Shown in pieces: positions 1 through 22,641 of a stretch of 28,025 bases of DNA. The position numbers and the translations under genes are program-made. The notes under the pieces were generated by a model. The model ran no database searches. It was not told where the DNA came from and saw only the letters and a program-made list of their open reading frames with translations. This stretch comes from a virus, in the IMG/VR virus record IMGVR_UViG_3300050026_001190, positions 1-28,025 of that record; one strand, given 5' to 3'. The stretch's first letter is position 1. Each line of letters starts with the position of its first letter.

Positions 1-3000
1 ATGCCCAATCCGGCGACCAATTCAGGCATCAGGGACAACCACAAGCGCGGTGTTGTCGCCGATTTCCTGAAGGCGAAGATTCAATCCGGCTCTCGGCTCT
101 CGGTTGTCTCCGCTTATTTTACCATCTACGCCTACGACGCGCTTCGCGAACATCTTGACCAGATTGACCATCTCGATTTCCTTTTTGGCGAGCCGCGCTT
201 CATCGCATCGCTCGACCCGGACAAGACGAAAAAAAAAGCGTTCATCATTGATGGCACCGGTTTGCAGCTCGCCAACCGCCTTGAGCAAAAGCACGTCGCC
301 CGCGATTGCGCGGAATGGATTCGCCAGAAGGTGGACATCAAATCCATCCGCCACGCCCAACTACTTCACGGGAAGATGTATCACATTGCCAACGCGGGCG
401 TGGAGGAGGCGATTCTTGGCAGTTCCAATTTCACCGTGCGCGGCCTCGGCCTCGGCGCGGGCAACAACAACATTGAACTGAACCTCGTGGTTGACAGCAA
501 TCGTGACCGGCAGGATTTGAAGGCATGGTTTGATGAACTGTGGAAAAGTGATGGCACAAAAGGCACTGAAAAACTGGTGGAAGATGTGAAGGCGGATGTC
601 CTGCAATACCTCGACCAACTTTATCAGAACCACGCGCCGGAATTCATTTATTATAAAACCCTCTTCCACATTTTTGAAAATTTCCTCGCCGATCAGGAAA
701 AGGGCGGACTGCTTGACCAGAACATCAAAATCGTGGACACAGGAATTTGGCAGGCTCTTTTCGAGTTCCAGCGCGACGGCGTGAAAGGCGCGATCAACAA
801 AATCCTAAAGCACAACGGCTGCATCCTTGCCGACAGCGTCGGCTTGGGCAAAACCTTCGAGGCGCTGGCTGTCATCAAATATTTCGAGCTCAAAAACGAC
901 AAGGTGCTGGTTCTCTGTCCCAAAAAACTCAAGGAGAACTGGACTGTTTATCAGGCACATATCAACAGCCCGCTTAACCCCTTCCTTGCTGACAGATTTG
1001 GCTACACCGTGCTCGCACATACTGATTTGAGCCGTGATGGCGGTTACTCCGGCGACATCAATCTCGAAAATTTTAACTGGGGCAATTTCAACCTCATCGT
1101 CATTGATGAATCCCATAACTTTCGCAACAACACCCCCGGCACGCGTGATGACGAGGGCAAGATCATCCGCAAGAGCCGCTACCAACGGTTGATGGACGAC
1201 ATCGTCAAGAGCGGTGTAAAAACCAAGGTTCTTTTGCTCTCTGCCACGCCGGTCAACAACGACCTGCGCGATTTGCGTAACCAGATTTACTTTCTTACCG
1301 AAGGCGAGGATGCTGCGTTCAAGGACACCATCGGCATCGGCAGCCTGAAGGACACGCTCGCCGTCGCGCAAAAAACGTTCACCGTCTGGGCAAAAAAACA
1401 GTCAGGTGAACGCAAAACCAAAGACCTGCTGGAAAAACTTAGTTCCGCATTTTTCAAGCTGTTGGACGAACTGACCATTGCCCGCTCGCGAAAACACATC
1501 CTGCGCTACTACAAGAGCAGCATCGCCGCGCTTGGCGGATTCCCGGAGCGACTCAAGCCCGTTTCCATTTTCCCGGACATTGATTTGCAGCGTCGTTTTC
1601 TCTCTTACGACAAGCTCAATGACGAAATCAATGGCTACAAGCTTTCGGTGTTCGCCCCGTCACGTTACCTCAAGGAAAAGTTCAAGCAGTTGCCTCTCTA
1701 CCAAACTCACGTCAGCGACCCCTTCAGTCAGGCCGACCGTGAAAAATTTCTCGTCGGCATGATGAAGATGAATTTCCTAAAGCGCCTCGAAAGTTCCGTG
1801 GAATCATTTGAAATCACCATGGGGCGGACTATTGGCAAGATTGAAGACCTGGAGCAGAAGATCCGAAATTATCAGGCCACGCCCAATCAGAACCCGGAGT
1901 CAGAAGAACTGGAACTGAATATCGCTATTCCCGAAGCGGAAGGCGAAGGCGATGACCCGATGGAGGTTGGCGGCAAGTTCAAATATCGTTTGGAGCATCT
2001 GAATCTCAATGACTGGCTGAAAGACCTTCAACTGGACAAGCAGCAATTGAGTTTGCTTCATTCCTCTGCCGAAGCCGTTACACCGGAGCGCGACGCGAAG
2101 CTCAAAGAGTTGAAACAACTCATCGAATGTAAAGTCAAAGGCCCCACCACGAACAAACGCGGCGAATTGAACAAGAAGGTGCTCGTGTTCACCGCCTTTG
2201 CTGACACCGCAGAATACCTGTTCAAGGCGCTGAATTCCTGGGCGCACAAGGAACTTGGCATTCACATCGCGCTGGTCACTGGCGGCGGTGGCAACCACAC
2301 GACGTTCGGCAAAACGGACTACAACCAAATCCTCACCAACTTTTCCCCGCGCTCTAAAAACCGCGACAAAATTCCGTCCATGCCACAGGACGCCGAGATT
2401 GATTTACTCATCGCAACCGATTGCATTTCCGAGGGCCAGAATCTCCAGGACTGCGATTACCTCGTCAACTATGACATCCACTGGAATCCCGTCCGCATCA
2501 TCCAACGCTTTGGCCGCATTGACCGTATTGGTAGTGTCAACTCCACCGTCCAGTTGGTGAACTTCTGGCCGACCCAAGACCTCGACAAATACGTCAACCT
2601 GAAGAATCGTGTCGAAGCACGCATGGCGTTGGTGGACATCGCCGCCACATTTGAGGACAACCTCCTCAAAAATGATGAAATCGAGGAAATCATCCACGAG
2701 GACATGCGCTACCGGGACAAGCAACTCCTGCGATTGCGAGAGGAAGTCCTCGATCTCGAAGATTTCAGTGAAAGCGTCGCGCTCAACGAATTTACCCTCG
2801 ACGATTTCCGCATCGAGTTGAGCAAATACATCGAAGCTAATCGCCAATTGCTCGAAGACGCGCCGCTCGGTCTTTACGCCGTTGTGCCTCCGCACCCGGA
2901 TCAACAGATCATCGCACCGGGTGTCGTGTTTTGTTTCAAGCAAAAGGGTGAGGCCAAAAGTGGCGACACCGTTAATCCTCTCCAGCCTTATTATCTCGCT

Positions 3001-3330
3001 TATGTGCGTGACGACGGCACCGTTCGATTTTCATTCGCCCAACCCAAACAGATTCTTGAAATCTACCGGCTGCTCTGCTCCGGCAAGGCGGCTGCCTACG
3101 AACAGCTCTGTCAGTTGTTCGACACCGTGACAAAAAACGGCACCGACATGAGCCAATACAATCGACTACTGACTTCCGCCGTGGATTCCATCGCCAAGAC
3201 ATTCCAGAAACGGGTTGCTGCCGGGCTGCAAACCGGACGCGACTTCGTCATCCCCGATCATCAGCCGAAGGCAAATGAAACCACCGACTTTGAGCTTGTT
3301 ACCTGGCTTGTAATTCAGAAACCACTGTAA
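1..3330 (+). CDS. PLD-nuclease/SNF2-type helicase fusion protein (defence-type)
   Basis: A 1109-aa protein that probably translocates on or remodels DNA using ATP and may cleave it. The N-terminal part (about 1-190) has a phospholipase-D-type half site: H123-x-K125, then GSSNF at 140-144 and a downstream acidic residue near 159. The helicase core follows, with motif I ADSVGLGKT (277-285), DESH (369-372), SAT (414-416), and motifs V/VI at about 800-845 (SEGQNLQ and QRFGRIDR). The combination of DxxGLGKT with QRxGRxxR is typical of SNF2-like superfamily 2. The next gene starts 5 nt downstream, so the two are likely co-translated. SNF2 helicases beside large adenine methyltransferases are known from class 1 DISARM (drmD/drmMI), where the PLD protein is a separate gene; here it is fused. 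The start codon is the first base of the window, so a promoter and possible longer start cannot be judged. Restriction by this protein is inferred. Confidence 0.88.
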   Translation: MPNPATNSGIRDNHKRGVVADFLKAKIQSGSRLSVVSAYFTIYAYDALREHLDQIDHLDFLFGEPRFIASLDPDKTKKKAFIIDGTGLQLANRLEQKHVARDCAEWIRQKVDIKSIRHAQLLHGKMYHIANAGVEEAILGSSNFTVRGLGLGAGNNNIELNLVVDSNRDRQDLKAWFDELWKSDGTKGTEKLVEDVKADVLQYLDQLYQNHAPEFIYYKTLFHIFENFLADQEKGGLLDQNIKIVDTGIWQALFEFQRDGVKGAINKILKHNGCILADSVGLGKTFEALAVIKYFELKNDKVLVLCPKKLKENWTVYQAHINSPLNPFLADRFGYTVLAHTDLSRDGGYSGDINLENFNWGNFNLIVIDESHNFRNNTPGTRDDEGKIIRKSRYQRLMDDIVKSGVKTKVLLLSATPVNNDLRDLRNQIYFLTEGEDAAFKDTIGIGSLKDTLAVAQKTFTVWAKKQSGERKTKDLLEKLSSAFFKLLDELTIARSRKHILRYYKSSIAALGGFPERLKPVSIFPDIDLQRRFLSYDKLNDEINGYKLSVFAPSRYLKEKFKQLPLYQTHVSDPFSQADREKFLVGMMKMNFLKRLESSVESFEITMGRTIGKIEDLEQKIRNYQATPNQNPESEELELNIAIPEAEGEGDDPMEVGGKFKYRLEHLNLNDWLKDLQLDKQQLSLLHSSAEAVTPERDAKLKELKQLIECKVKGPTTNKRGELNKKVLVFTAFADTAEYLFKALNSWAHKELGIHIALVTGGGGNHTTFGKTDYNQILTNFSPRSKNRDKIPSMPQDAEIDLLIATDCISEGQNLQDCDYLVNYDIHWNPVRIIQRFGRIDRIGSVNSTVQLVNFWPTQDLDKYVNLKNRVEARMALVDIAATFEDNLLKNDEIEEIIHEDMRYRDKQLLRLREEVLDLEDFSESVALNEFTLDDFRIELSKYIEANRQLLEDAPLGLYAVVPPHPDQQIIAPGVVFCFKQKGEAKSGDTVNPLQPYYLAYVRDDGTVRFSFAQPKQILEIYRLLCSGKAAAYEQLCQLFDTVTKNGTDMSQYNRLLTSAVDSIAKTFQKRVAAGLQTGRDFVIPDHQPKANETTDFELVTWLVIQKPL

Positions 3331-3335
3331 TTGAC

Positions 3336-6300
3336 ATGCCCGCCACCCCGACAAATCTTCGTTCCGAAATTGCAGTTCGACTTGGCGCGCTCGCCAGCGG
3401 GACGCTGGCCACCGGGGCCGAAGCGCTCTTTGAATGTCTTGGCTACCGCAGTCCCCGCCGGCTTGCTATCCATTCGTTGGCCGAGTTACAGGAGCACCTT
3501 GACCAGAATGGCTCGCTCACAGAGCAAAATGCCTTACTTTCCCGCTGGCGTGGCATTGATTTTCTATTTCAAATCACCAGTTCTGAACTGGCGGACAACG
3601 GCGGGCAAGGTTTGCTGTTGGAGGAATCCGCCGACTTTGAAGCCAAGGAGGTTAAATCCTACGTTTTCTTCGCGGTGGATTTGACCGCCCGTTCACCCGG
3701 CGAGTCGCCCACGCGCACGGAATTGTCGAGTATTACTCGTGCGCTAAACCGGCTCGTGCCCATGCCGGTGTTGGTGTTGTTCCGCCACGACGCCTCTATC
3801 TCGCTCGCCATCATTAATCGCCGCAAGAATCTCCGCGACGGCACTCGCGACGTGCTGACGCGCGTCTCGCTTATCCGCGACATTGATTGTCGGCAACCGC
3901 ATCGCGCCCACTTGGAATTGCTTGAACGCTTCTCGTTACATCGTCTCCGCGAAGAAGCTGGCGCAATTCACACCTTCGCGCAACTGGATGATGCGTGGCA
4001 GAAAATCTTGTCCATTCAGGAATTGAACCAGCGATTCTACCGCGAACTTGTGGACTGGTTCACTTGGGCCATCGCCGAAATCAAACTCGCGTGTCTGCCC
4101 GAACATGTGACCGACGACGCGAAGCACCGCGCCCGCGCAACGCAGGAATTTACCGTCCGGCTCATCTGTCGTCTGCTCTTCGCTTGGTTTCTAAAAGAAA
4201 TGCGCCTCGTTCCCACCGAGTTGCTGGAGCTTTACGACATCGCCGACCGCCGCCGGGTGCTCACCCAGGGCGGAAGCGACCGCCGTTTTCTCGACGGCGA
4301 CCAATACTATCGCGGCATCCTCCAAAACATTTTCTTTCAGGCGCTCAATCAGCCGATGAATCAGCGGCGCAAGTCCGGGCCGGAAGCCGCATCCGACCGC
4401 ACCGTGACCAAGGCCGAGTTGAAAAATCTTGCCTATCTCGGTAAAAACAAGCTCCCCGAAGATTTTAATTACGACCTATTTGACCGCATCCCGTATCTCA
4501 ACGGCGGGTTGTTTGACAAACTCGCCGAGGATAACGCTTCCGACACCATTAATGACGGTGCGTTTCGCATCCCGAACAAACTCTTTTACGCCACACGGAA
4601 TGATGGATTTACCATTGCTGTCGGCACGGGACGTCGCCAGAACGTTCGTGTGGTCGAAGGTATCAATCGTATCTTTGACCGCTACCGTTTCACCGTCGCG
4701 GAAAATACGCCGCTCGAAGAAGACGTGGCGCTTGACCCCGAACTTCTTGGCTTGGTCTTTGAAAATCTTCTGGCCGAAATTGACCCGGAAGATGAAGCGG
4801 CTGCTGAAACCGCCCGCAAGGCATCCGGCTCCTATTACACGCCGCGCCGCATTGTAGATTACATGGTCAACGAGGCGTTGCATCTGCATCTGCGCACCCG
4901 GTTCGAGCAGGGCGTGGCAACCCGTGAAGACATTCAACTTCTTTCGCGTCTCTGCTACGAAACACCGGATGATGTGGATTTCTCACCCATTGCCGACCGT
5001 ATTGTGGAATCTCTCGATGTTGTGCGAGTGCTTGACCCCGCCTGCGGTTCAGGCGCGTTCCCGATGGGTATGTTGCACCGCATGGTGGAATTGCTGGCCC
5101 GCGTTGACCCGGACAACGAACTTTGGAAACAGCGTCTCCTTGCCCGTTTGCCCGCCGCGATTCGCGCCGATGCCGCTCGCGGCATGGAAGGTAAAAGTTA
5201 CAACTACCTCCGCAAACTCGGCGTGATTCAAAAAAATCTTTACGGCCTCGACATCCAGCCGCTCGCCTCGCTCATTGCCAAGCTCCGCTTCTTTCTTACG
5301 CTCGTCATCGAACAAGACGTGCGGCCTGAAGACCGCGCCCACAACTACGGCCTCCAGGCTTTACCGAATCTGGAAACCAATCTGCTTTGTTGCAACTCCC
5401 TTCGTGATTCCGAACACGGACTGCTCTCCGCTCCGGTGCTGGCGAATCTTCGCGCGGCGCGTGAAGAATACTACCAGCCACAGACCACGCGAGACCGCCG
5501 CGATCAAATTGCTGAGCAAATCGGTCGTGAACTGGCGGCACTTTATCCGGGCTTTGCCGAGCAGACCAAAGAGATCAAGCCTACGGGTGCATCCGAGCAT
5601 GACCGGCGCACGATGCGTCAGCAGCAGGATGTCCGCTGGATTGCCGAATGGTTCAAGCACGCCACGCTCGCCGCTCCATTCTTCAACGTCGAAACCTTCT
5701 TCCCTGAACTCGTAGGCGAAGGTGCAACACGGAATCTCGCACCATTCCACATCGTCATCGGCAATCCACCTTATGGCGGCACGAAGATTCCAGAGGAAGT
5801 CCAGACCGCGCTTGGCCTCGGCTCGAAAGACCCTTATGGCGCGTTCATCGCGCGGTTTCTCGGCTCGCGCCAGCGGCCCGGCCCGCTCGCGGAGAGCGGC
5901 GTACTCGCCTACATCGTCAGCGACACGTTCATGACCATCAAGACGCACCGGCCTTTGCGCGAGCAGATGCTGGATCACCGTGTCCACAAGATGGTTCGCG
6001 TGGCGGGCGACACCTTCAAGGCCGTTGTCAACTGCGCGGTGATTTTCTGCCAGCGCGGCGCTGCCCCGGCGGAGCACACTTGCCAGATGGCCGATCTGAC
6101 CAATGTATCTATTCACGACCGATACGAGTATTTCCTTCATCTGCTCTATCAGACCGAAGGCTTCGCGCGCCGCCAGAATGTCGCCAACCAGACTTACGCC
6201 ATTTACCATTACCGCCAATCGCTTATCCACACGAACACCAATTCCCCATTCTTTGTCGCGTCGCCCAAGCTTTTCGCGCTGATGAATGATGTCATCGCAC

Positions 6301-8018
6301 CGGTGAATTACGAAATTATTGGCGGCAAGCGTGTGCCCGTCCGAACAGTGCAACTCAACAGCAACGAAGTGCGCCTAGTGAAACTCGGCGATATCGCAGA
6401 GGTTAAAGTTGGTTTGCAAACCGGCGACAACGATGAATATCTGTTTCAAAAACCGGAAACTCGCGGTTCTTATCGTTCCATCGACAATTTTTCCCAATTC
6501 TTGTTAACCGATATCGACCTAAATCGCATTCGCTCAGAAGCAAACTTGCGAAGGGCGGTTGTCGAACAGGGCATATCAAAAGAGGATGCTAACTCAAATC
6601 GCTATTTTGGTGGACGTTACATTGTGCCATACGACAAAGGTGGGGAGTCTGATAGTGATGAAGGTTGGATGCCTAACTATTGGGTTCCAACGGCTTATTT
6701 TATTGATTGGAGCGACTGGGCTGTCCAGCGTATGAAAACGCTTACCTTGAGAGAAAAGAATCGCCTAAACGGGATCGCTGGAGGGAACGATAAATTAACC
6801 TCCCGTTTTCAGAACATAGAATTTTATTTTCAACAAGGAATCACTTTTTCCGACACAGGTTTCTACGCACCAACCTTTCGCCTTAGCAGCGGCGCAGTTT
6901 TCGACGTGATGGGGATGACACTTTTTGGAGAATTTGAGCCATATCGAACCTGTGCCCAGCTTTCCTCGAAGTTCACTCGATTCTGCATTAAGAATTTTGT
7001 CAATGCTTCGGTTCACACACAGGTGGAGGGTTTGAAGCCCATACCTGTTCCCGCGCGGACTGTGAATGGAGATAGACTTGCTGAGTTAGCAATGAAGGTA
7101 GTGGAGAACCAACATGCTGACCCCCGCTACGACTACGCGAGTAACGAACAGATTGATATAGACCAACTAGTGTATGACGCCTATGGATTGAACGAAACGG
7201 ACATTCGTGAAGTTGAAGACTGGTATGCTAGGCGCTATCCCAAGCTCGCCACTGCCCAACGGAAATCACTTGCAGTGAAACAAGGCAAGACAGAAGCGCA
7301 ACTCATTGCCCGAACAACGTGGCACCTCTACTGCGATGAAAGCCGCCATTTGCCACACGACCGCGAGCCAACCATGCTCATGGGATCGCTCGCCTGTCCG
7401 GCGGATCGCGCCCATGCGCTCAACGCGGAACTCTCCGCCCTCTGCCAACAGCACAGCCTACCCAAGCATTTTGAGTTCAAATGGACCAAGGTGAGTCCCG
7501 GTAAACTGGATTTTTACCGCGCCGTGCTGGAATGGTTCCTCGCCGCCAAGGATGTTTCATTCCGCGCACTGGTGCTGCCGGACAAGCAGCGGGAATACGC
7601 TCGCGTGCCGGAAGAAAAGCGGGAACATGTTTATTACGTCCTGTATTACCAACTGCTCCGCCGGGCGATGGAGCCGGAAAACCGTTACCGCGCCTTCCTC
7701 GACATGAAAGACACGCGCGGCCGGGAAAAACTCCGGGAGTTAAAGCAATTGCTTGAGACGAACAACGCATCGCTGACGGCGGAAGATAAACCGACGCTGC
7801 AACACGTCCGCAGCCATGAAATCCGTCTGATGCAGGTTTCCGACCTGCTACTTGGCGCAGTGGGTTTCGCCCGGCGTGCCAAGTCGGAAAAAACTTCGCC
7901 CGCGAAACAGGCGTTGGTGTCCATGCTCGAAGAAAAGCTCGATTTCTCGCTCATCGGCAACAGCCCGCCCGGCTCGACCAAAGTAATCGTGGAAACCTGT
8001 GACGCGCTGCTGCTATGA
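3336..8018 (+). CDS. Eco57I/PglX-like adenine DNA methyltransferase with C-terminal DUF3800 domain
   Basis: A 1560-aa protein expected to methylate adenine in DNA using S-adenosylmethionine. The helical N-terminal region includes LICRLLFAWFLKEMRLVP near 275-292, usual in this family. SGSYYTPRRIVDYM begins near 497, the SAM-binding DPACGSGAF is at 567-575, and the catalytic NPPY is at 810-813. A likely target-recognition region follows, with LGDIAEVKVGLQTGDN near 1015-1032 and FYAPTFRLSSG near 1176. The usual family ending (IDQLVYDAYGLNE, about 1275-1290) is followed by a linker and a further domain at about 1327-1560. That domain has YCDES (1332-1336), FLD with D1456 and SDLLLGA with D1503, the acidic pattern of DUF3800, an RNase H-like family. 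PglX/DrmMI-type enzymes usually end near 1200-1300 aa, so about 235 aa are extra. The stop overlaps the next start (ATGA). Nuclease activity of the fused domain is inferred. Confidence 0.9.
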   Translation: MPATPTNLRSEIAVRLGALASGTLATGAEALFECLGYRSPRRLAIHSLAELQEHLDQNGSLTEQNALLSRWRGIDFLFQITSSELADNGGQGLLLEESADFEAKEVKSYVFFAVDLTARSPGESPTRTELSSITRALNRLVPMPVLVLFRHDASISLAIINRRKNLRDGTRDVLTRVSLIRDIDCRQPHRAHLELLERFSLHRLREEAGAIHTFAQLDDAWQKILSIQELNQRFYRELVDWFTWAIAEIKLACLPEHVTDDAKHRARATQEFTVRLICRLLFAWFLKEMRLVPTELLELYDIADRRRVLTQGGSDRRFLDGDQYYRGILQNIFFQALNQPMNQRRKSGPEAASDRTVTKAELKNLAYLGKNKLPEDFNYDLFDRIPYLNGGLFDKLAEDNASDTINDGAFRIPNKLFYATRNDGFTIAVGTGRRQNVRVVEGINRIFDRYRFTVAENTPLEEDVALDPELLGLVFENLLAEIDPEDEAAAETARKASGSYYTPRRIVDYMVNEALHLHLRTRFEQGVATREDIQLLSRLCYETPDDVDFSPIADRIVESLDVVRVLDPACGSGAFPMGMLHRMVELLARVDPDNELWKQRLLARLPAAIRADAARGMEGKSYNYLRKLGVIQKNLYGLDIQPLASLIAKLRFFLTLVIEQDVRPEDRAHNYGLQALPNLETNLLCCNSLRDSEHGLLSAPVLANLRAAREEYYQPQTTRDRRDQIAEQIGRELAALYPGFAEQTKEIKPTGASEHDRRTMRQQQDVRWIAEWFKHATLAAPFFNVETFFPELVGEGATRNLAPFHIVIGNPPYGGTKIPEEVQTALGLGSKDPYGAFIARFLGSRQRPGPLAESGVLAYIVSDTFMTIKTHRPLREQMLDHRVHKMVRVAGDTFKAVVNCAVIFCQRGAAPAEHTCQMADLTNVSIHDRYEYFLHLLYQTEGFARRQNVANQTYAIYHYRQSLIHTNTNSPFFVASPKLFALMNDVIAPVNYEIIGGKRVPVRTVQLNSNEVRLVKLGDIAEVKVGLQTGDNDEYLFQKPETRGSYRSIDNFSQFLLTDIDLNRIRSEANLRRAVVEQGISKEDANSNRYFGGRYIVPYDKGGESDSDEGWMPNYWVPTAYFIDWSDWAVQRMKTLTLREKNRLNGIAGGNDKLTSRFQNIEFYFQQGITFSDTGFYAPTFRLSSGAVFDVMGMTLFGEFEPYRTCAQLSSKFTRFCIKNFVNASVHTQVEGLKPIPVPARTVNGDRLAELAMKVVENQHADPRYDYASNEQIDIDQLVYDAYGLNETDIREVEDWYARRYPKLATAQRKSLAVKQGKTEAQLIARTTWHLYCDESRHLPHDREPTMLMGSLACPADRAHALNAELSALCQQHSLPKHFEFKWTKVSPGKLDFYRAVLEWFLAAKDVSFRALVLPDKQREYARVPEEKREHVYYVLYYQLLRRAMEPENRYRAFLDMKDTRGREKLRELKQLLETNNASLTAEDKPTLQHVRSHEIRLMQVSDLLLGAVGFARRAKSEKTSPAKQALVSMLEEKLDFSLIGNSPPGSTKVIVETCDALLL

Positions 8019-8569
8019 GTGACGCCACGAAACCGGCACCGGCAAAACCGGCATGGTTGCCGCCGCACATCCCATTTAACGGCGATTGGGACACGTTTGT
8101 AAAAGCCCTTTACCTCGTTTTTGATCGGGATTTCAAAAGAGCGTTTCCGCGCTTCCGCACGTTTCCGGTTTGGCATAACCGCCGACTTGATCCAGAGGAC
8201 AAATATAATTTTGAAGAAGGTTTCTGGCATCTTGTGACCCGTGACCAGTGGGTTTACAACCGCGAAATCCGCCGCAATGAAAAGCAACGCCTGCCGGAAT
8301 TGGATCGCGCCGGACGATTGCCTTGGGCAAAACCCGTAATCGAACACGCCGCCGACGTCGAAATGCTGGCTTGGGATTTCGATGACGAAATGAAATGGGG
8401 GAAAGTCGTTCGCACCTACGTTTGGCTTAAAAACCACGACTTTGTCGTAATTTTGGAACGTCAGCCGAAGCAGAGGGGTGATGTTTTTATGCTCGTGACG
8501 TCGTTCTTGGTGGAATTTGAAGCCAAGCGCCGCGACCTCCAAAGCCGTTATGAACGTCGCCGAAAATAA
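8015..8569 (+). CDS. Conserved small protein of unknown function, third gene of the defence-type operon
   Basis: A 184-aa protein whose ATG overlaps the stop of the methyltransferase gene (ATGA), so it is probably translationally coupled. I cannot name its family with certainty. Visible features are FNGDWDTFVKALYLVFDRDF near the N-terminus, a FWHLVT segment, a central LPWAKPVIEHA motif, then VRTYVWLKNHDFVVILE and VTSFLVEFEAKRRDL near the C-terminus. There is no signal peptide or membrane segment. The layout, two conserved aromatic/charged strands ending in an R-x5-Y-x2-R tail, recalls small hypothetical proteins in defence islands and phages, some of which are proposed to have a barnase/RelE-like fold. 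That comparison is weak and from memory. It could be a toxin, an accessory factor or an inhibitor of the two large enzymes. The reading frame itself is secure. Confidence 0.75.
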   Translation: MSDATKPAPAKPAWLPPHIPFNGDWDTFVKALYLVFDRDFKRAFPRFRTFPVWHNRRLDPEDKYNFEEGFWHLVTRDQWVYNREIRRNEKQRLPELDRAGRLPWAKPVIEHAADVEMLAWDFDDEMKWGKVVRTYVWLKNHDFVVILERQPKQRGDVFMLVTSFLVEFEAKRRDLQSRYERRRK

Positions 8570-13184: not shown

Positions 13185-14708
13185 TCAGGTTATCGGTTGA
13201 GGGTTTGCAGTTGTCGCCGCCGACACCGGCGGTTTGACCGCGACTGGCGCAGTCGGTCGTTTTTCAGTAGAGAGAAGTTTGATTTCTTCTTCATTCGTGC
13301 GGCCAGGCGCGATGACTTCACCGGCGCGGAACAGGTCAAGCATCGTGTCCTGACTGATTGCACCGGCCTGCCACGCCGCGACCAGCGCCGTGATTTCCTG
13401 AAAGGACATTCCCGTGATGCTGAAATCCGCGTTCAGGCTGGCGAGCACAAGGTCGGGACCGATGGCGTCAGGAATCGGCTCGGTCGAGTTCCACCAATAA
13501 ACCCAGCGCAACACTTGCGTCAGCGACGCACTGACGCTCAATGAAACTGTGTTCAAAATGCTGTTCTCGCCGCTTTGACGAAGTTCAATGGCAGCAGCCG
13601 TTTCACCAACGCGCTTTCGCGATTCGAGCATCCGCGTGCCGAGGACGGCCATGAGTTGCTCGTCGCGATCCATCGCGCGTTCAAAGGTCGTCAGACCTTG
13701 ACCATGAAATTCAAGATAGCCAGCCGTTGCACCGGGCGTTTCGGCGACCCATGCCGTGCTGGAGCCGATGCGAAGGGATGAATTTTTGTCGAAGCCGCTA
13801 ACCCAAGCCGTCGGCAATGCGGTGAAGTGCATCCCATGCTTGTAGTCGGCGGTGAGCCGGTAATGGTCGAGATTGACGGCGATGATGTCAGCCAGCGGGA
13901 CTTTATCCACTTCCGGCAGCGAATGGCGCGGCCCATGAAAGACAAAGGGAATTAGTGGCAGCGGTTTGCCAAGGCGAAGCGGCGTCAGGGACTCCACCAG
14001 TTTCCATTTCCTTTTGCCACGCTTTGAGATGCCGCTTGCATTCTGTCCGTCCGCGAGGAATTGCCAGATTTCAACCTGGTAAGACCAATCGGCTTTCGCG
14101 TTGTCAGCCGTGGCTTGCGGCGAAATGAGTTTCAGGACGCGAAGTTGCTGGATTTCATCAGGCACGAAAGGATCAGTTTCCGTGGCGGGCATAACACTGA
14201 CTTCCTTGAGGACGACAAGCGTCAGCACGTTGCGGCCATTCACCCGTTCCGTGTGCCAGTTGATGATGTCTTCAGCGGAATAAGCGACAGCATAGGCGCG
14301 TTGCTCGGCTTCCTCGTTCCAATCCACCAGCGTGCCAGCCCGACCGACGCCGATGATTTCCGTGATGAGCTTTTTCGAGAAGGCAGACAGCGACGTGCCA
14401 AGCATGTCGGCATCTTCCACAAATTCGATGAGCGCATCGCCGACGCCGGTGCCGGCGTCCGGCAATTTGAAGGTTGGATCACGGCGGAAAATCAGTCCAA
14501 CGAAACCATCCGCCGTGCGGGCTGAGGCGTTAAAGAAGGATGCCCGGTTTTTGTAGGCGAGATATTCCTTGTCGTCCTGACAATCCAGACGCGGCAGATA
14601 TTTTTCAGCAGCGGCTTTGACGGCATCCTCACCGGCGAAGACATCGCGAGCCCGCAGCCAGGCCGGTAGGCTGGCATCGTATTCAAGATGTGTGCTGTTT
14701 GCAGGCAT
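13185..14708 (-). CDS. Phage portal protein (DUF4055)
   Basis: A 507-aa protein forming the ring through which DNA enters the head. The N-terminal pattern YLPRLDCQDDKEYLAYKNRA, followed by FFNASARTADGFVGLIFRRD, is the recognisable signature of DUF4055 (PF13264) portal proteins. The usual central GRAGTLVDW and the late LRQSGENSILNTVSLSVSAS segment are also present. The length is normal for the family. It heads the head-gene operon. In most phages the terminase large subunit gene lies directly upstream, but here 6.5 kb of other DNA separates them. No convincing ribosome binding site precedes the ATG. Confidence 0.85.
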   Translation of the reverse strand: MPANSTHLEYDASLPAWLRARDVFAGEDAVKAAAEKYLPRLDCQDDKEYLAYKNRASFFNASARTADGFVGLIFRRDPTFKLPDAGTGVGDALIEFVEDADMLGTSLSAFSKKLITEIIGVGRAGTLVDWNEEAEQRAYAVAYSAEDIINWHTERVNGRNVLTLVVLKEVSVMPATETDPFVPDEIQQLRVLKLISPQATADNAKADWSYQVEIWQFLADGQNASGISKRGKRKWKLVESLTPLRLGKPLPLIPFVFHGPRHSLPEVDKVPLADIIAVNLDHYRLTADYKHGMHFTALPTAWVSGFDKNSSLRIGSSTAWVAETPGATAGYLEFHGQGLTTFERAMDRDEQLMAVLGTRMLESRKRVGETAAAIELRQSGENSILNTVSLSVSASLTQVLRWVYWWNSTEPIPDAIGPDLVLASLNADFSITGMSFQEITALVAAWQAGAISQDTMLDLFRAGEVIAPGRTNEEEIKLLSTEKRPTAPVAVKPPVSAATTANPQPIT

Positions 14709-15111: not shown

Positions 15112-15615
15112 ATGAAATCAGTAATGCTCGCCTTTTTTTTAGCCGTCTCAATTCAAGCCGCCGACATCCAGGTTTATTTTTCTCCAACTGGCGGATGCAC
15201 AGAAGCCGTGGTTGAAAATCTGAACAAGGCAACGAATACGGTCTTGGTTCAGGCTTATTCCTTCACCTCCGCCCCAATCGCTAAAGCTTTGGTTGATGCA
15301 GAGAAAAGGGGAGTGAAAGTGCAGGTCATTCTCGACAAATCACAGAGAACTGAAAAATATTCGTCAGCCGATTTTGTTCAACACGCCGGCATTCCAACCT
15401 ACATCGACGCCAAACATGCCATCGCCCACAACAAAATCATGATTATCGACAGCAAGACCGTTCTGACCGGCTCGTTTAATTTTACGAAAGCGGCGGAAAT
15501 GAACAATGCCGAGAATCTTCTAGTGATTCAGGACCCTGCACTGGCAATTAAATACACGACGAACTGGCATGCTCATTTACAGCATTCAGAACCGTATTTA
15601 GGTAAAGGGAATTGA
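15112..15615 (+). CDS. Secreted phospholipase-D-type nuclease (Nuc-like)
   Basis: A 167-aa protein with a signal peptide (MKSVMLAFFLAVSIQA, cleavage about residue 16-17) and one PLD active-site motif. H106-x-K108-x4-D113 is followed by GSFNF (120-124) and NNAENL with E134. Single-motif PLD proteins of this size (Nuc of Salmonella plasmid pKM101) act as dimers and cut DNA without metal ions. The enzyme should act in the periplasm or outside. It lies 1 nt upstream of a TPR gene, probably one operon. Inside a phage-like element this is cargo: it could degrade incoming DNA, as a periplasmic nuclease would, or merely scavenge nucleotides. Confidence 0.85.
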   Translation: MKSVMLAFFLAVSIQAADIQVYFSPTGGCTEAVVENLNKATNTVLVQAYSFTSAPIAKALVDAEKRGVKVQVILDKSQRTEKYSSADFVQHAGIPTYIDAKHAIAHNKIMIIDSKTVLTGSFNFTKAAEMNNAENLLVIQDPALAIKYTTNWHAHLQHSEPYLGKGN

Positions 15616-17223: not shown

Positions 17224-17259
17224 GCCCGCCGCAGCCTATGTGCAGCACTCGCGGCGGGC
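17224..17259. repeat. Short inverted repeat, 9-bp arms
   Basis: GCCCGCCGC at 17224-17232 and its exact reverse complement GCGGCGGGC at 17251-17259 enclose 18 bases. It lies 6 bases before a longer perfect palindrome. The whole stretch 16985-17609 has no gene I can support. Confidence 0.6.
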
Positions 17260-17265
17260 GGTGAC

Positions 17266-17313
17266 GTAGTAGGTGCGTGCCATCACAAAAGGTGTATGGC
17301 ACGCACCTACTAC
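17266..17313. repeat. Perfect 18-bp inverted repeat with 12-nt loop
   Basis: The arm at 17266-17283 (GTAGTAGGTGCGTGCCAT) is the exact reverse complement of 17296-17313, with loop CACAAAAGGTGT. Both arms, read outward from the centre, begin ATGGCACGCACCTACTAC, which creates mirror-image start codons on both strands. There is no T-run, so it is a poor terminator. It could be a REP-like element, an IS200/IS605-type end or a recombination relic. Confidence 0.8.
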
Positions 17314-17609
17314 ATCACAGCCCCGCCTGCAGTCGCGGGTTCTCACATTCGCTACACAGCGCACGAGGTTCGTTGCATCGTTGCGCTGTTCAGTCTCCGC
17401 TCGCAGTCGCAGGGTTTGCGTCGCTGGTTGCGGTTGCGCTGGTGGTTGCTCGTATCGTCCGAGCGCGTCATCCGCCATGTCCGCACTTGCACCTATCACC
17501 AGTATTACGCCAGCCAGCGCCGTCATGTGCGGCCAGTTTGAGCCGCGACGCGGCTTTTGATTGGCATAGAAAGCAATTGGGAATAGTATCTGCACCAACT
17601 TCAACTGGC

Positions 17610-18098
17610 ATGTTTTGGAATCGCAAAAAAACAGCCAAGGCGGATTCGTTTATTAAACGGATTCACCAAATTATGTTTTTCTCCGCTTCGCTCGCTGGCA
17701 AAGACAAAAATCAAGTTGTTGAGGCGTTGCGTGATGGCCTCGGCATTAAAATTCAGAGCATTGAGGATACCGAGGAACGAACATGGCAAGACAGTTTGAA
17801 CGAAGACATCGCCGTATCGTTCTCTCTGGATTTCAACAATCCCAAGCTGGTTTCGCAAATTCAAATTACTGGCTACGGTGAAATTGATGGCCTTTTAGCT
17901 TTTGCAAATGGTTTGGAAATAGGAAAACCCAAGTCGGTCAATTTTGGTGTGAATGTTGTGGAGCATCGAACCCGAAGAACACCACAACTGGCCAGAACAG
18001 TCGGTAAGGGTTTGCTTGAACACCCGGATCTGGAGTGCGAACATTTTGGTTCAAATATTATTCTTTCGCAGCGCAGTCGAAATTCTGGATCGGGATAA
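17610..18098 (+). CDS. Hypothetical protein, possibly degraded
   Basis: A 163-aa frame from the ATG at 17610. The open frame extends upstream to 17277, but those 111 codons cover palindromic, non-protein-like DNA, so I exclude them. The first 120 residues look like a real soluble protein (VVEALRDGLGIKIQSIEDTE, then VSFSLDFNNPKLVSQIQITG, then LLAFANGLEIGKPKSVNFGV). The last 40 residues are less convincing; from about 17953 a second frame also looks plausible (PEEHHNWPEQ), which may point to a frameshift. No family recognised. It stands alone between palindrome-rich stretches, as a cargo gene or remnant would. Confidence 0.5.
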   Translation: MFWNRKKTAKADSFIKRIHQIMFFSASLAGKDKNQVVEALRDGLGIKIQSIEDTEERTWQDSLNEDIAVSFSLDFNNPKLVSQIQITGYGEIDGLLAFANGLEIGKPKSVNFGVNVVEHRTRRTPQLARTVGKGLLEHPDLECEHFGSNIILSQRSRNSGSG

Positions 18099-18311
18099 AA
18101 TCAACTGCGGTTTGGCAACTCGACACATTCCAACCGTTCAGGTTGACGAATGGTTTTAGGCGCAGTGTCAGGCATCGAAACCTCGTCGCTTCACTCCTCG
18201 CCGGGGAAAGTAAACAGCCCGGCGTCACCGAGCCGACACTTGCGCTTGGTCGCGGCCAGACGCAGGCGCCGAACCACTCCCGACGCGCCAAACCTCGGCA
18301 CGGTTCCGCCC

Positions 18312-18442
18312 GCGCACGATGACTGACTCGGCAGTTTGCAACCGCTCCACTCCATTTCACTTCAATTTCGCAGACTGCATTTCCGTTCCATTGCGTTCCG
18401 ACGGCCGCAAACTGCCGAGACAGTCAGGGACGAATCGTGCGC
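18312..18442. repeat. Long imperfect palindrome, 27 paired bases
   Basis: The left arm 18312-18339 pairs with 18407-18442 in three blocks: GCGCACGAT with ATCGTGCGC, GACTG with CAGTC, and CTCGGCAGTTTGC with GCAAACTGCCGAG. There is one A-A mismatch, and 8 extra bases (18426-18433) sit on the 3-prime arm only. The loop is 67 nt. A stem this long is not expected by chance in DNA of this composition. Confidence 0.8.
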
Positions 18443-18465
18443 ACCCGAAGATTCAGGATTCCAGA

Positions 18466-18636
18466 GGCCGCGATGCTCCGCATATCGGCCAAGACCAGCA
18501 ATAGTCCGCTAGGCTTCGCCCGGACAAGCAAAGCAATAGCCCGCGATGCTTCGCACGGGCAAGACACCGCAATATACGGCGCGAGGCTTCGCCTGTCGCC
18601 GAGGACAAGCAATAGGCCGCGAGGCTCCGCCCGGCC
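18466..18636. repeat. Array of five hairpins with compensatory base changes
   Basis: Five hairpins of 22-25 nt lie in 171 bases. Outer stems are GGCCG/CGGCC (18466-18490), GTCCG/CGGAC (18504-18525), GCCCG/CGGGC (18539-18560), CGGCG/CGCCG (18577-18601) and GGCCG/CGGCC (18615-18636). Each has an inner stem (ATGC/GCAT, GGC/GCC, TGC/GCA, AGGC/GCCT, GGC/GCC) closing a TTC or TCC triloop. Linkers of 13-16 bases share an ending GCAATA. Both stems change between copies while pairing is kept, which indicates selection on a folded strand. Function unknown. Confidence 0.8.
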
Positions 18637-18654
18637 AAGACATCGGCAATAATC

Positions 18655-18730
18655 GTGAGCACGGACATTTTCCGACCGCTATACTACGCTGGCGCTCCGT
18701 TTCGCCGCTCGGAAAAATGCCCGACCTCAC
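18655..18730. repeat. Imperfect palindrome following the hairpin array
   Basis: GTGAG (18655-18659) pairs with CTCAC (18726-18730), then CGG with CCG, then CATTTTCCGA (18666-18675) with TCGGAAAAATG (18709-18719, one extra A). Two to three mismatches interrupt the stem. The loop contains a further small GGCG/CGCC hairpin. Confidence 0.65.
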
Positions 18731-18747
18731 TGATAAAACCAAATTAG

Positions 18748-18848
18748 TCTGACACCTCGCCATCAGGCTGCGTGCGGTGCTGCCGAGCACGCCCATGCAC
18801 CCATCGCGTCGCAACCCGCGCACTCCACTCTGCTGTCGAGGAGTCAGA
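18748..18848. repeat. Widely spaced 12-bp inverted repeat
   Basis: TCTGACACCTCG (18748-18759) and CGAGGAGTCAGA (18837-18848) are reverse complements at 11 of 12 positions and enclose 77 bases. It continues the series of palindromes in this region. On its own it would be weak; in this cluster it is worth recording. Confidence 0.5.
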
Positions 18849-18968
18849 GCAGTTGGCTTCGCGCTGACGCGCCGAAGCCGGAAACGATGCCAGCAGACAC
18901 GGCAAGGTTGGACATCGGCTACGCGGCTTCGTTGTCATGCAGGAATGCTTCCGGGACATCACACAACA

Positions 18969-19069
18969 CATATTGTGTGTTTGGTCGTTCCTCCCACATA
19001 AATTCTTTTCGTGCCGACATCTCCCCGCAAGCGGGACCCTTCGGCACGGAATTTATGTCACACAATATG
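18969..19069. repeat. Long composite palindrome with all bulges on the 5-prime arm
   Basis: Reading inward, CATATTGTGTG (18969-18979) pairs with CACACAATATG (19059-19069); 16 unpaired bases follow on the left only. ACATAAATTC (18996-19005) then pairs with GAATTTATGT (19049-19058); 4 unpaired T follow on the left only. CGTGCCGA (19010-19017) pairs with TCGGCACG (19041-19048). The apical loop holds CCCGC-AA-GCGGG. All 29 outer pairs are perfect and the 3-prime arm is uninterrupted. Confidence 0.8.
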
Positions 19070-19105
19070 GCATTGTGTGCTATCCCGCTGCTTCACTGTC
19101 ACGCT

Positions 19106-19143
19106 GACTGCTAATCCGCACCTTCGCGCTCGTGCGGGCAGTC
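19106..19143. repeat. 12-bp hairpin with a 4-nt bulge on the 5-prime arm
   Basis: GACTGC (19106-19111), four unpaired bases TAAT, then CCGCAC (19116-19121) pair with GTGCGG and GCAGTC (19132-19143), loop 10 nt. This repeats the one-sided bulge architecture of the larger palindrome 40 bases upstream with a different sequence. Confidence 0.7.
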
Positions 19144-19276
19144 ACCGCGCCAGTTCGCAGGCATCCTTCACGCCAACTTCGCCGCTACGCCTGTAATGCG
19201 AACAGCCGTGTCTGCAACCCTAAACCCCCGCCCATCCTCAATGCTCGCCTCCTTCCATCCCCAAGGAGGCTGCGCC

Positions 19277-19528
19277 TCATGTTTTCAGACTAGAAGGCGG
19301 TTTGGGGACATGATGCACCTTTGCAAAATCTCCTGCTTCAGCACGAGTGAGAAAGTCCTTTAACGCCCCACCGGTTAAATATGGTCGACCTGCAATGTTA
19401 ATGGTTTTTAGCCAACCATTTTTCCGCCAACGCCAAGTAGTGACGGGGGATACGCCAATTCCTTCTGTGAATCTATGTAAACTGACAATTGGCCGGTCAA
19501 TGTATTCGTTCATGCTCACTTTAATCAT
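19277..19528 (-). CDS. Helix-turn-helix DNA-binding protein (excisionase/AlpA-like)
   Basis: An 83-aa protein. LHRFTEGIGVSPVTTWRWRK followed by GWLKTINIAGRPYLTGGALKDFL is the winged-helix pattern of MerR/excisionase-type HTH proteins: helix-turn-helix, then a wing with G-R-x-Y. I start at the ATG at 19528; the frame is open further to 19813 but the upstream part covers a GC palindrome and the promoter area. An alternative ATG lies at 19513. It diverges from the + strand operon at 19812, so it may regulate that operon or direct excision of a nested element. A second gene of this kind lies at 25643-25876. Confidence 0.72.
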   Translation of the reverse strand: MIKVSMNEYIDRPIVSLHRFTEGIGVSPVTTWRWRKNGWLKTINIAGRPYLTGGALKDFLTRAEAGDFAKVHHVPKPPSSLKT

Positions 19529-19580
19529 AACTCTTCGTCGTTCCTTTCTTTGGTCTGCTCGCTTCACTCGTTTGGTTTGT

Positions 19581-19603: not shown

Positions 19604-19811
19604 GGTTGGTGTAGGCACCGCCTGCGTTTTCAGGTCCGGCTTTTTCTGCCCAGCGTTTCTCTCCATCGCCCTCACGGCGTCGCCGAAAATACCAGCCCGC
19701 CCACTCGTGGCTCCTTCTGAAGAGCACTTCCACGGGGGAGGGCTGCCAGCTCCGCTTTTTCGTGAAGGGCGACGGACAGAAGACGCACAGCAGAGCAGAA
19801 AAAAAAAGACC

Positions 19812-20243
19812 ATGAAAACAAATACAAAAAATCAAAAAATCGGGCTCGGGAGCAGATCCGCACAGTTGAGCAGCACAAACACCAACACACCGAAAGTAGC
19901 GGGCGCAGTTGCGCCAATTGAGAAGAAAGACAATCGCTTGCCGATTGACACCGAGGCGCGGAAGAAAAACCGCACCTTGCCCATCACGAAAGTTTTGGAA
20001 CTTTTGAAAACCAGCAATTCCGGTTTGTTCAATCTCGCCGAGGTTGTCGGGAAGTGGGTTTGGGTGACATTCCGCGAGACGCCCGCGCCGGAGTTGCGGC
20101 AGATGTTGGCGCAGCTTGGTTTTCATTGGAATCGCGAGCGCCAAGCGTGGCAGCACCCTTGCGGCGCATTTCGTTTGCGCGGCGCAGGCGACCCGCACGA
20201 GAAGTATCAGAGTTACTTTCCCGCCGACATCCGCACCAACTGA
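19812..20243 (+). CDS. Hypothetical mobile-element protein with a GKWVWVTF...GFHWNRERQAWQ domain
   Basis: A 143-aa protein. The first 60 residues are low-complexity and polar (asparagine, threonine, lysine), probably unstructured. The C-terminal part carries VVGKWVWVTFRETPAPELRQ and LAQLGFHWNRERQAWQHPCG. I have seen this short domain in proteins of plasmids, conjugative elements and phage-like islands, but I cannot name a function. I chose the ATG at 19812, since the 35 codons upstream in frame look non-coding. It heads a three-gene unit with gaps of 43 and 4 nt, transcribed away from the HTH gene. Confidence 0.62.
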   Translation: MKTNTKNQKIGLGSRSAQLSSTNTNTPKVAGAVAPIEKKDNRLPIDTEARKKNRTLPITKVLELLKTSNSGLFNLAEVVGKWVWVTFRETPAPELRQMLAQLGFHWNRERQAWQHPCGAFRLRGAGDPHEKYQSYFPADIRTN

Positions 20244-20527: not shown

Positions 20528-20929
20528 ATGAACACAAACCAAAATCAATCGCCGTTTGGCGAAGTCATTTACAGTTACACGAGAGCGCAAGCCGTCGCCG
20601 ACGGCTTGCAGGTTGATGTTTCAAAAGTTGCCGCCGAAGCGGGCATCCGCTTTCCGGTGTTTCTCACGCGCACGGTTTTTGATTCATTCGTGACCGTGCC
20701 GGAAGGCGTGACCGGACAGGATGAAGCCGGACGCCTTTGGGATATTGTCTGGATGCTCCGTTTCGGAATCCTTCGCAGCCGCCCAGGTTGCGACCGCATC
20801 CCCGTTGCGTTCTATGTCCGCAACGACAACCGCACAGCGCGGCTTGTAAAGTTGATTGCCACTTGCGGCGCACTGGACATTGACAACCCGCAGCCCGCCA
20901 TCACCTTAATGCTGCCGGACGAGGATTGA
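20528..20929 (+). CDS. DUF6573 family protein
   Basis: A 133-aa protein. IYSYTRAQAVADGLQVDVSK near the start, then FPVFLTRTVFDSFV, LWDIVWMLRFGI and a final VKLIATCGALDIDNPQPAIT fit DUF6573, a family of unknown function carried by plasmids, phages and integrative elements. It is the last gene of the + strand unit. Its role is unknown; the gene's value here is as a marker that this sub-block is mobile DNA rather than a host locus. Confidence 0.75.
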   Translation: MNTNQNQSPFGEVIYSYTRAQAVADGLQVDVSKVAAEAGIRFPVFLTRTVFDSFVTVPEGVTGQDEAGRLWDIVWMLRFGILRSRPGCDRIPVAFYVRNDNRTARLVKLIATCGALDIDNPQPAITLMLPDED

Positions 20930-21243: not shown

Positions 21244-22641
21244 CTACACGCCGCGCAATTTCCTTTGGGAAATTGACCGCGATTTCGTCGCCACCAGATA
21301 GCGGAGACAATCCGCCGCGTCATCGCCGCCGATGCCATCCTCATCCGTGTCCACCTTGAGCACATCCTCTGGCCGATTCGGATCATGTTGCAGCGAAGGT
21401 AAAGTTTCCAGCAGTCGCCCGCACCGCTTGTGAATGAAAAGTGTTGTCTTCACACCGCCCTCGACATCGCCGAACCGCTGCAAAATTTCCGCCCAGCCGT
21501 TCACGCGGTCGGTATTCGCGCAGCGAAGTGTGATTCCAAGTTTCGCATATTGCGCCGCAATAGTTGTCCCGTCGCTCTGGCGCGAAAACATATCCGCGCC
21601 GGCCACAAATCGTTTCAAATCGTCGAGTCCGAGTTTGCGCTCGCCGATTTTGTGCCGCGCCAGCATCGCCTTGATTGCCGTCGCGTGACGTTGCGGCAGC
21701 CAAAACCGCTCCGCATGTTCGTCCACGATGAAAATATTCCCGTCCCCGTCGCGACAGCCGAGCAAAACAACGGTGTAATGCGCGAAACCATAATCCAGCG
21801 CGGCGAACCATTCCACCGCCCGCAAATCGTCGAAATCCTCGACGACGTGAACCTCGCGGCGCAGCGTCGTGAAGTATTGGCCGGCGGCAATGTCCCAATC
21901 GCCGTCTAGCCAAGCCCGTTTTTGCCAGCCGGTCAGATTTTCCAAAACTTTGCGATACTCCGGGTTGTTGAAAGCATTGTCGCCCACCCGCGCCGGGATA
22001 AACCGCGTTTCTGTTTCGCGCCGTTCCAACATCGGCACAACGAACCGCGTCCGATACCAGCCATGACCGACACCCCCCGGATTTGTTGTGGAATAGATGC
22101 GTGGTCGCCAGTCCGGTTTGCTCGTCCGGCAGCAGGTCGTGATGTCCTGGTATTTCCGGGCGGTGAGGGTGGTTGCTTCCTCGATGCCAATCACGTCGTA
22201 TTCCAATCCCAAGTAGGCATCAATGTCCTTTTCATTCTGAAAATGACCCGCGATGATCCGCGAGCCGTTGTTGAACGCCAGCACGCCACGGAACGCCGAG
22301 AACTCATGCGGCAGCCGATTGAACAATCGCCGCCGCAAGTCCTCAAAGTGTTCAAGATTTGCTTTTCCGACCTTGCGGAGCAACAGGCATTTCAACCCCG
22401 GCATCCGCTGGCAATCATCCGCCCCCATTTGCGCCAGCAACCAATGCGATTTGCCGCCACCGCGAGCGCCGCCGTAGCCAATGGCTGTCGGCCCGTCCGG
22501 TTGATCGCAAAGCCGGGCGGCAGCACTGGCGACCAGTTGTCGCTCTTGCAGCCAGATTCGCGCGGCCACCAGGTTGCGGGTCTGATTCTCTGGACACCCC
22601 GCAGCCACCGCCGCGCTCAGAAATGCCTCGCGCTCCATCAT
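21244..22641 (-). CDS. Phage terminase large subunit
   Basis: A 465-aa DNA-packaging motor with ATPase and nuclease domains. Walker A GGARGGGKS (57-65), Walker B VIGIEE (150-155) and the coupling motif STTNPGG (184-190) form the ATPase. The RNase H-like nuclease has LDYGF with D283, GAD with D350 and GGDDAADCLRYL with D440/D441. All expected acidic residues are present, so the enzyme looks intact. Its ATG overlaps the stop of the small subunit gene (ATGA). The gene ends at the palindrome cluster, and the portal gene is 6.5 kb away rather than adjacent. Confidence 0.92.
   Translation of the reverse strand: MMEREAFLSAAVAAGCPENQTRNLVAARIWLQERQLVASAAARLCDQPDGPTAIGYGGARGGGKSHWLLAQMGADDCQRMPGLKCLLLRKVGKANLEHFEDLRRRLFNRLPHEFSAFRGVLAFNNGSRIIAGHFQNEKDIDAYLGLEYDVIGIEEATTLTARKYQDITTCCRTSKPDWRPRIYSTTNPGGVGHGWYRTRFVVPMLERRETETRFIPARVGDNAFNNPEYRKVLENLTGWQKRAWLDGDWDIAAGQYFTTLRREVHVVEDFDDLRAVEWFAALDYGFAHYTVVLLGCRDGDGNIFIVDEHAERFWLPQRHATAIKAMLARHKIGERKLGLDDLKRFVAGADMFSRQSDGTTIAAQYAKLGITLRCANTDRVNGWAEILQRFGDVEGGVKTTLFIHKRCGRLLETLPSLQHDPNRPEDVLKVDTDEDGIGGDDAADCLRYLVATKSRSISQRKLRGV

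Follow-up and report, generated by a model that had tools for sequence, protein, structure and literature searches.

Genomic setting

The window, which comprises the whole 28,025-base virus record, is judged by its gene content to be a provirus. It encodes an integrase (matching Phage_integrase, with Arm-DNA-bind_3 below the cut-off), an AAA protein, a primase-like protein, the small and large terminase subunits, a portal-like DUF4055 protein, a scaffold protein and the major capsid protein, and it also holds a restriction/defence block. Despite the integrase, primase-like, terminase, portal, scaffold and capsid genes, and with the defence block present, no tail gene was recognised in the window; the provirus could be a capsid-forming satellite. 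Both ends of the record fall at gene starts, so the record has probably been trimmed. The stretch 1–8569 holds a candidate defence system, with an HKD+Snf2 helicase, a type IIG-like methyltransferase that carries a fused DUF3800 domain, and a gene resembling PDC-M04B, and a PLD-domain protein resembling DrmC models is encoded at 15112–15615.

Between the gene for the terminase large subunit (TerL; 21244–22641, minus strand) and the portal-like DUF4055 gene (13185–14708, minus strand), both assigned by Pfam and synteny, no gene was recognised from 18.1 to 19.28 kb. This stretch contains an array of five hairpins at 18466–18636 and additional long inverted repeats. Two genes towards TerL lie on the plus strand: a DUF6573 gene (20528–20929; Pfam) and a small conserved gene of 143 amino acids (19812–20243), whose start is likely at 19812 and for which no Pfam match above the cut-off was obtained.

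The hairpin array and the surrounding element

The plus-strand letters of the array units are GGCCG CGA TGC TCC GCA TAT CGGCC (unit 1, 18466–18490), GTCCG CTA GGC TTC GCC CGGAC (unit 2, 18504–18525), GCCCG CGA TGC TTC GCA CGGGC (unit 3, 18539–18560), CGGCG CGA GGC TTC GCC TGT CGCCG (unit 4, 18577–18601) and GGCCG CGA GGC TCC GCC CGGCC (unit 5, 18615–18636). Direct reading bore out the stems, loops and linkers described in the initial annotation: the outer 5-bp and inner 3-bp stems are fully paired in all five units, three nucleotides (CGA or CTA) are left unpaired on the 5′ side of each, and GCAATA is present in every linker. The period of 35–38 was also picked up by repeat finders. Read in the minus sense, a unit consists of X5, an inner stem of 3 bp around a GNA loop, a UCG bulge and X5′, with linkers of the form UAUUGC...CUU; the loops in the window are GAA or GGA, and the linker motif is UAUUGC.

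Pairing was counted in the array hairpins of 54 element copies, which were chosen by their loop and bulge letters alone, with pairing not used. In this set 90% of the cells pair, compared with 69% (maximum 73.5%) when the 3′ arms were shuffled. This motif-defined test is the one to be trusted, as free shuffles in the unit census give about 65 loose units against 168 real ones. For the 37 distinct 22-nt units, 95.9% of the cells are paired versus 77.2% after shuffling, and double-change cells number 51 versus 13, a value reached in none of 500 shuffles. Six of the eight stem pairs have changed on both sides. In the census, 52 of the 54 copies carry between one and six array hairpins; L223 and L225 have none, though the element is present. 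Among fully paired units there are 11 outer and 5 inner stem types. The C-GNA-G loop was found in 142 of the 168 units. The stems change around a constant GNA loop and UCG bulge; this suggests the unit's unpaired part as the feature that is read.

The five hairpins make up only a small fraction of the structured element to which they belong. In the window the element spans approximately 18118–19275, possibly extending to 19811, and is folded on the minus strand; it is about 1.2 kb long here, and some relatives reach about 1.5 kb or more. Judged by coverage depth, the 1.2-kb span is kept in up to 46 of 53 copies, and in some copies the element is interrupted by large indels and inserted genes. 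No open frame is kept across the D5–array stretch in all copies. The order of domains in the minus sense is D0, D1, the D2 hairpin, D3, a conserved single-stranded stretch, D5, the array, D7, D8, D9 and D10. D0 (19247–19270) is a hairpin of GCCUCCUU/AAGGAGGC in the window and of GUCCCCCC/GGGGGGAC in L144, with pairing assigned by eye. D1 (18893–19214) is a large nested domain with GCAGACACGGC/GCCGUGUCUGC, described from sequence and fold; when its pairing was compared by eye, the CACACAA stem was seen to be swapped for an unrelated paired stem in L010. The D2 hairpin (18857–18890) is visible in sequence and fold. UCUGAC/GUCAGA closes D3 (18748–18849), a branched stem in which an A.A mismatch is conserved (alignment A4, helices 1–5). 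D4–D5 (18643–18757; model R1, 110 bits; covariation) combines the conserved single-stranded CAGACYAAUUUGGUUUUAUCAGUGAG with a long stem-loop that GUGAG/CUCAC closes. D7–D8 (18226–18426; model R2, 169 bits; covariation), which in the RNA sense follows the array on its 3′ side, forms two long stems, and D9–D10 (18118–18215) is a 3′ part with a hairpin at 18126–18153, recognised from coverage depth and from shortened "mini" elements, with pairing by eye. All of these domains were assigned to the minus strand.

Past a window-specific insertion, a conserved fold-rich block of unassigned strand lies at 19620–19811 (blastn blocks, coverage and sequences); it may represent the element's 5′ end or a leader of the opposite gene. 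A minus-strand helix-turn-helix, excisionase-like gene with a weak PHROG match (19277–19530) is situated between the element and this block, and no relative of it was found at that place in other copies. Just past the 3′ end of the element sits a variable gene (17277–18098), the start of which overlaps a 68-nt self-complementary stretch at 17256–17323. A search with this ORF gave no relative, and L002 holds a relative of its C-terminal part at the matching place. A structure model of a neighbouring gene's protein is of moderate quality (mean pLDDT 72), and no PDB match was obtained at E ≤ 0.001.

Homologues and their distribution

A pattern derived from the array unit led to five true homologues in virus contigs, and a second pattern, taken from a conserved stretch, led to more homologues and to four contigs of Verrucomicrobia subdivision 3 genomes. 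The pattern-found homologues have the wider architecture in common, not the array alone, and nearly all carry the same provirus genes. Further relatives were brought in by TerL and portal alignments; L006, a pattern match without the architecture, and L226, which has no array, were set aside. In total, 54 element copies were found in virus contigs and Verrucomicrobia genomes. A blastn search of 18100–19280 against phage and plasmid records gave no match.

Two covariance models were used, R1 for the domain adjoining the array and R2 for D7–D8. Within one order of Verrucomicrobia, R1 matched 26 of 320 genomes, and in one family it matched 18 of 49; a single genome had up to five copies. A class-wide and a phylum-wide sample, both scored with strict filters, gave matches in 4 of 384 and in 1 of 388 genomes, respectively. 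R2 matched 43 of the 320 genomes of the order and, in addition, the syntenic place in four TerL relatives that are 74–78% identical (L020, L021, L023 and L025). These R2 places, together with the missing array in L223 and L225, indicate that the element is distributed more widely than the array.

The order TerL–element–portal was found in 17 of 17 copies with both genes, TerL being 5′ and the portal 3′ of the element, and both genes are in sense with the element. The small gene corresponding to 19812–20243 is antisense to the element in all 37 copies that hold it. TerL and portal are lacking in L144 and L224, where the setting is satellite-like with a DUF3854 primase, and in L193 and L197, where the element lies beside TraG/D, TrwC and serine recombinase genes. 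From these neighbours we infer the satellite-like and conjugative element types, many copies being on short MAG contigs.

Folded strand and nature of the element

Paired changes were found in the flanking domains as well as in the array. In D3–D5 (14 sequences), 95.2% of the cells are paired and 25 of 54 pairs have changed on both sides, which was matched in 0 of 500 shuffles; controls in which the structure was slid gave 33–44% paired. D4–D5 had 88.6% of cells paired and 20 of 28 pairs changed on both sides (54 sequences, in an alignment fitted to the model), and in D7–D8 (26 sequences) 96.9% of the cells were paired, with two-sided changes in 15 of 41 pairs. Since RNAalifold derived the structures from these very alignments, the share of paired cells is biased towards them; the double changes are not. 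Pairing is thus kept through double changes across homologous loci, and the selection on a folded RNA or single-stranded DNA that the initial annotation had proposed from the window alone is supported by these changes.

The consensus folds much better in the minus than in the plus sense (−62 versus −32 and −39 versus −17 in two consensus sets). Single-sequence folding energies did not separate the strands once composition was allowed for. Because composition explains most of the single-sequence difference, and because folding programs allow G.U pairs, a strand-symmetric mismatch count was adopted, for which inverted repeats were picked by a criterion that makes no distinction between the strands. 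It gave 159 distinct G.T against 62 A.C mismatches, compared with 30 against 19 in the flank control and a ratio of about 1.16 to 1 predicted from base composition alone. The excess of G.T over A.C marks the strand of TerL and portal as the folded one. The hairpins, which had been read on the plus strand, are therefore most likely folded on the minus strand. The mismatch bias tells which strand folds, not whether it is RNA or DNA.

RNA is preferred over single-stranded DNA for three reasons: in 17 of 17 copies TerL and portal are read in the same sense as the folded strand, D3–D8 contain many G.U pairs that are conserved, and most carriers are proviruses equipped with genes for double-stranded packaging. 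If the element instead acted as single-stranded DNA exposed in replication or transfer, for example as a Frpo/ssi-like promoter or priming site for early genes (19812), its neighbourhood of TraG/D and TrwC genes and the divergent small gene that is always nearby would be accounted for, and Frpo promoters of plasmid leading regions do fold in single-stranded DNA (PMC11541004). Its C-GNA-G loop also follows the rule for extraordinarily stable DNA mini-hairpins (GCGAAGC), so that GNA loops between GC pairs count against the RNA reading. We nevertheless consider this explanation unlikely. A consensus scan for sigma-70-like promoters on either strand gave 2 sites versus 2.0 expected by chance, so −35/−10 boxes were not found in the folded strand; this result also counts against the RNA reading, as does the finding that TTGA[CT]-TANNNT had no conserved match upstream of the element. 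TerL, portal and capsid genes in most carriers imply double-stranded packaging, G.U pairs in D3–D8 argue for RNA, and the span far exceeds the 50–350 bp regions searched for Frpo (PMC11541004). The fixed place between terminase and portal genes and the presence in satellite-like elements would fit a DNA packaging site or a phi29 pRNA-like motor RNA. Satellites often use the same packaging sites as their helper phages. A packaging role is nonetheless rather improbable: the element also adjoins conjugation genes, up to five R1 copies occur in one genome, and a DNA site would not need single-strand pairing.

The array itself calls for a separate weighing of mutation and selection. One-sided standard changes were zero in the 8 pairs of the 37 distinct units, as opposed to 51 both-side cells, whereas the flanking domains differ in this respect. 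Single-side changes in the array are A.C as often as G.U, and a few unit types recur, identical in distant copies. DNA-level template switching or module swapping, rather than selection on a folded strand, may have produced these paired changes; according to PMC8794818, a single template-switching event can create or maintain a hairpin with compensatory changes. Against this, the arms change around a 3-nt bulge and a GNA loop that stay fixed, though the process tends to perfect arms, and in the flanking domains G.U intermediates occur and G.T strongly outweighs A.C. Moreover, template switching explains the route of mutation, not conservation. We regard it as a possible but minority explanation. 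The discrete recurring types and the paired changes without G.U intermediates leave either whole-unit swapping, or template switching that keeps the arms perfect, or intolerance of G.U; the array hairpins may be module-swapped or kept perfect by template switching. Of the "several independent double substitutions" noted at the outset, the keeping of paired changes stood, while their independence is less certain, as some may have arisen by such events. REP sequences are typically GC-rich hairpins of a size similar to the array units, and one genome has as many as 11 occurrences of the unit pattern, as might be expected of a REP/BIME-type host repeat piled up in a phage. This origin, raised in the initial annotation as a counter-hypothesis, is very improbable and was rejected, because the units are not scattered in the host chromosome. 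Of 15 loci with the unit outside R1 matches, 14 are further or "mini" element copies and one is a chance match with one mismatch; a mini element consists of an array and the D9–D10 part and is often found next to portal or the 19812 gene. Four element-free genomes gave zero matches, and the domain order around the array is conserved.

On the sequence evidence, the element is a previously uncatalogued folded nucleic acid of more than 1 kb, most likely an RNA, and the five hairpins are one exchangeable part of it, present in 0 to 6 copies. A noncoding sequence of more than 600 nt with covarying multi-domain structure is one of the traits of a large structured phage RNA, and such a sequence was found here. 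We think it likely that Verrucomicrobia proviruses encode, on the minus strand, a large structured RNA of which the hairpins form one domain, and that satellite-like and conjugative elements share it. The predicted RNA would be transcribed with or within the late region and would fold, like GOLLD and ROOL, into a scaffold of several domains. Each array hairpin, with its rigid stem, UCG bulge and GNA loop, would be one of several interchangeable sites at which a protein or further copies of the RNA could dock, and the number of hairpins would set the valency; this docking role is the least certain step and more doubtful than probable.

GOLLD, found in phages and prophages, is a giant structured RNA made up of a conserved and a variable part; ROOL, from the same sources, is a large ornate RNA of unknown function, and both form RNA cages (PMC12286853). 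Like GOLLD and ROOL, the element is a giant, ornate, phage-borne fold, but it lies between TerL and portal, contains a hairpin array and occurs in Verrucomicrobia, and in contrast to GOLLD no tRNA was found in the window. It is longer than 1.2 kb, compared with about 660 nt for ROOL. In line with the earlier remark that no known family came to mind, Rfam cmscan of the window gave no match at gathering score (GOLLD, ROOL, OLE, HEARO and others), and only chance-level miRNA/snoRNA matches at E ≤ 5 for eight loci. By this test the element belongs to neither the GOLLD nor the ROOL family, and a new family of large structured phage and mobile-element RNA, GOLLD/ROOL-like in its working, is the best explanation. 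That it represents a new giant RNA class whose variable-number hairpin cassettes are exchanged among phages, satellites and conjugative elements and set binding valency or specificity is a tentative extension. Few large structured phage RNAs are known, and their functions are open; the element adds a comparison with many covarying pairs, from a different phylum, with a modular array and in proviruses, satellite-like and conjugative elements, and makes the generality of cage or scaffold formation testable.

Other repeat-built or mobile-element systems resemble the locus in part. The phi29 pRNA is a phage RNA linked with packaging genes; it is shorter than 200 nt and has another gene setting, and the element has no Rfam match. 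CsrB/RsmY RNAs are built from repeated hairpins, and were rejected as a model because only 41 of 168 units have a GGA loop, the loops being of GNA type, the stems bulged and the hairpins embedded in a larger fold. ToxI antitoxin RNA of type III TA consists of 35–40 nt tandem repeats, whereas the array repeats are diverged hairpins, with no toxin gene recognised beside them. A CRISPR array was rejected, as the repeat copies are only 72–94% alike and the linkers are conserved, in place of near-identical repeats and unique spacers. Frpo/ssi regions are alike in having a folded strand near early genes of mobile elements; the element is far larger.

Two further observations concern D5 and D7. Model R2 (18226–18426) weakly matches D5 (18641–18731; 19.4 bits), so D5 and D7 may be duplicated domains. 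In L011 and L012, a short palindromic insert (GGTGCGAGCCGCACCGGCGA and variants) lies inside the element in the D5 and D7 regions; it also occurs within the portal coding sequence of L012 and is a separate short mobile repeat.
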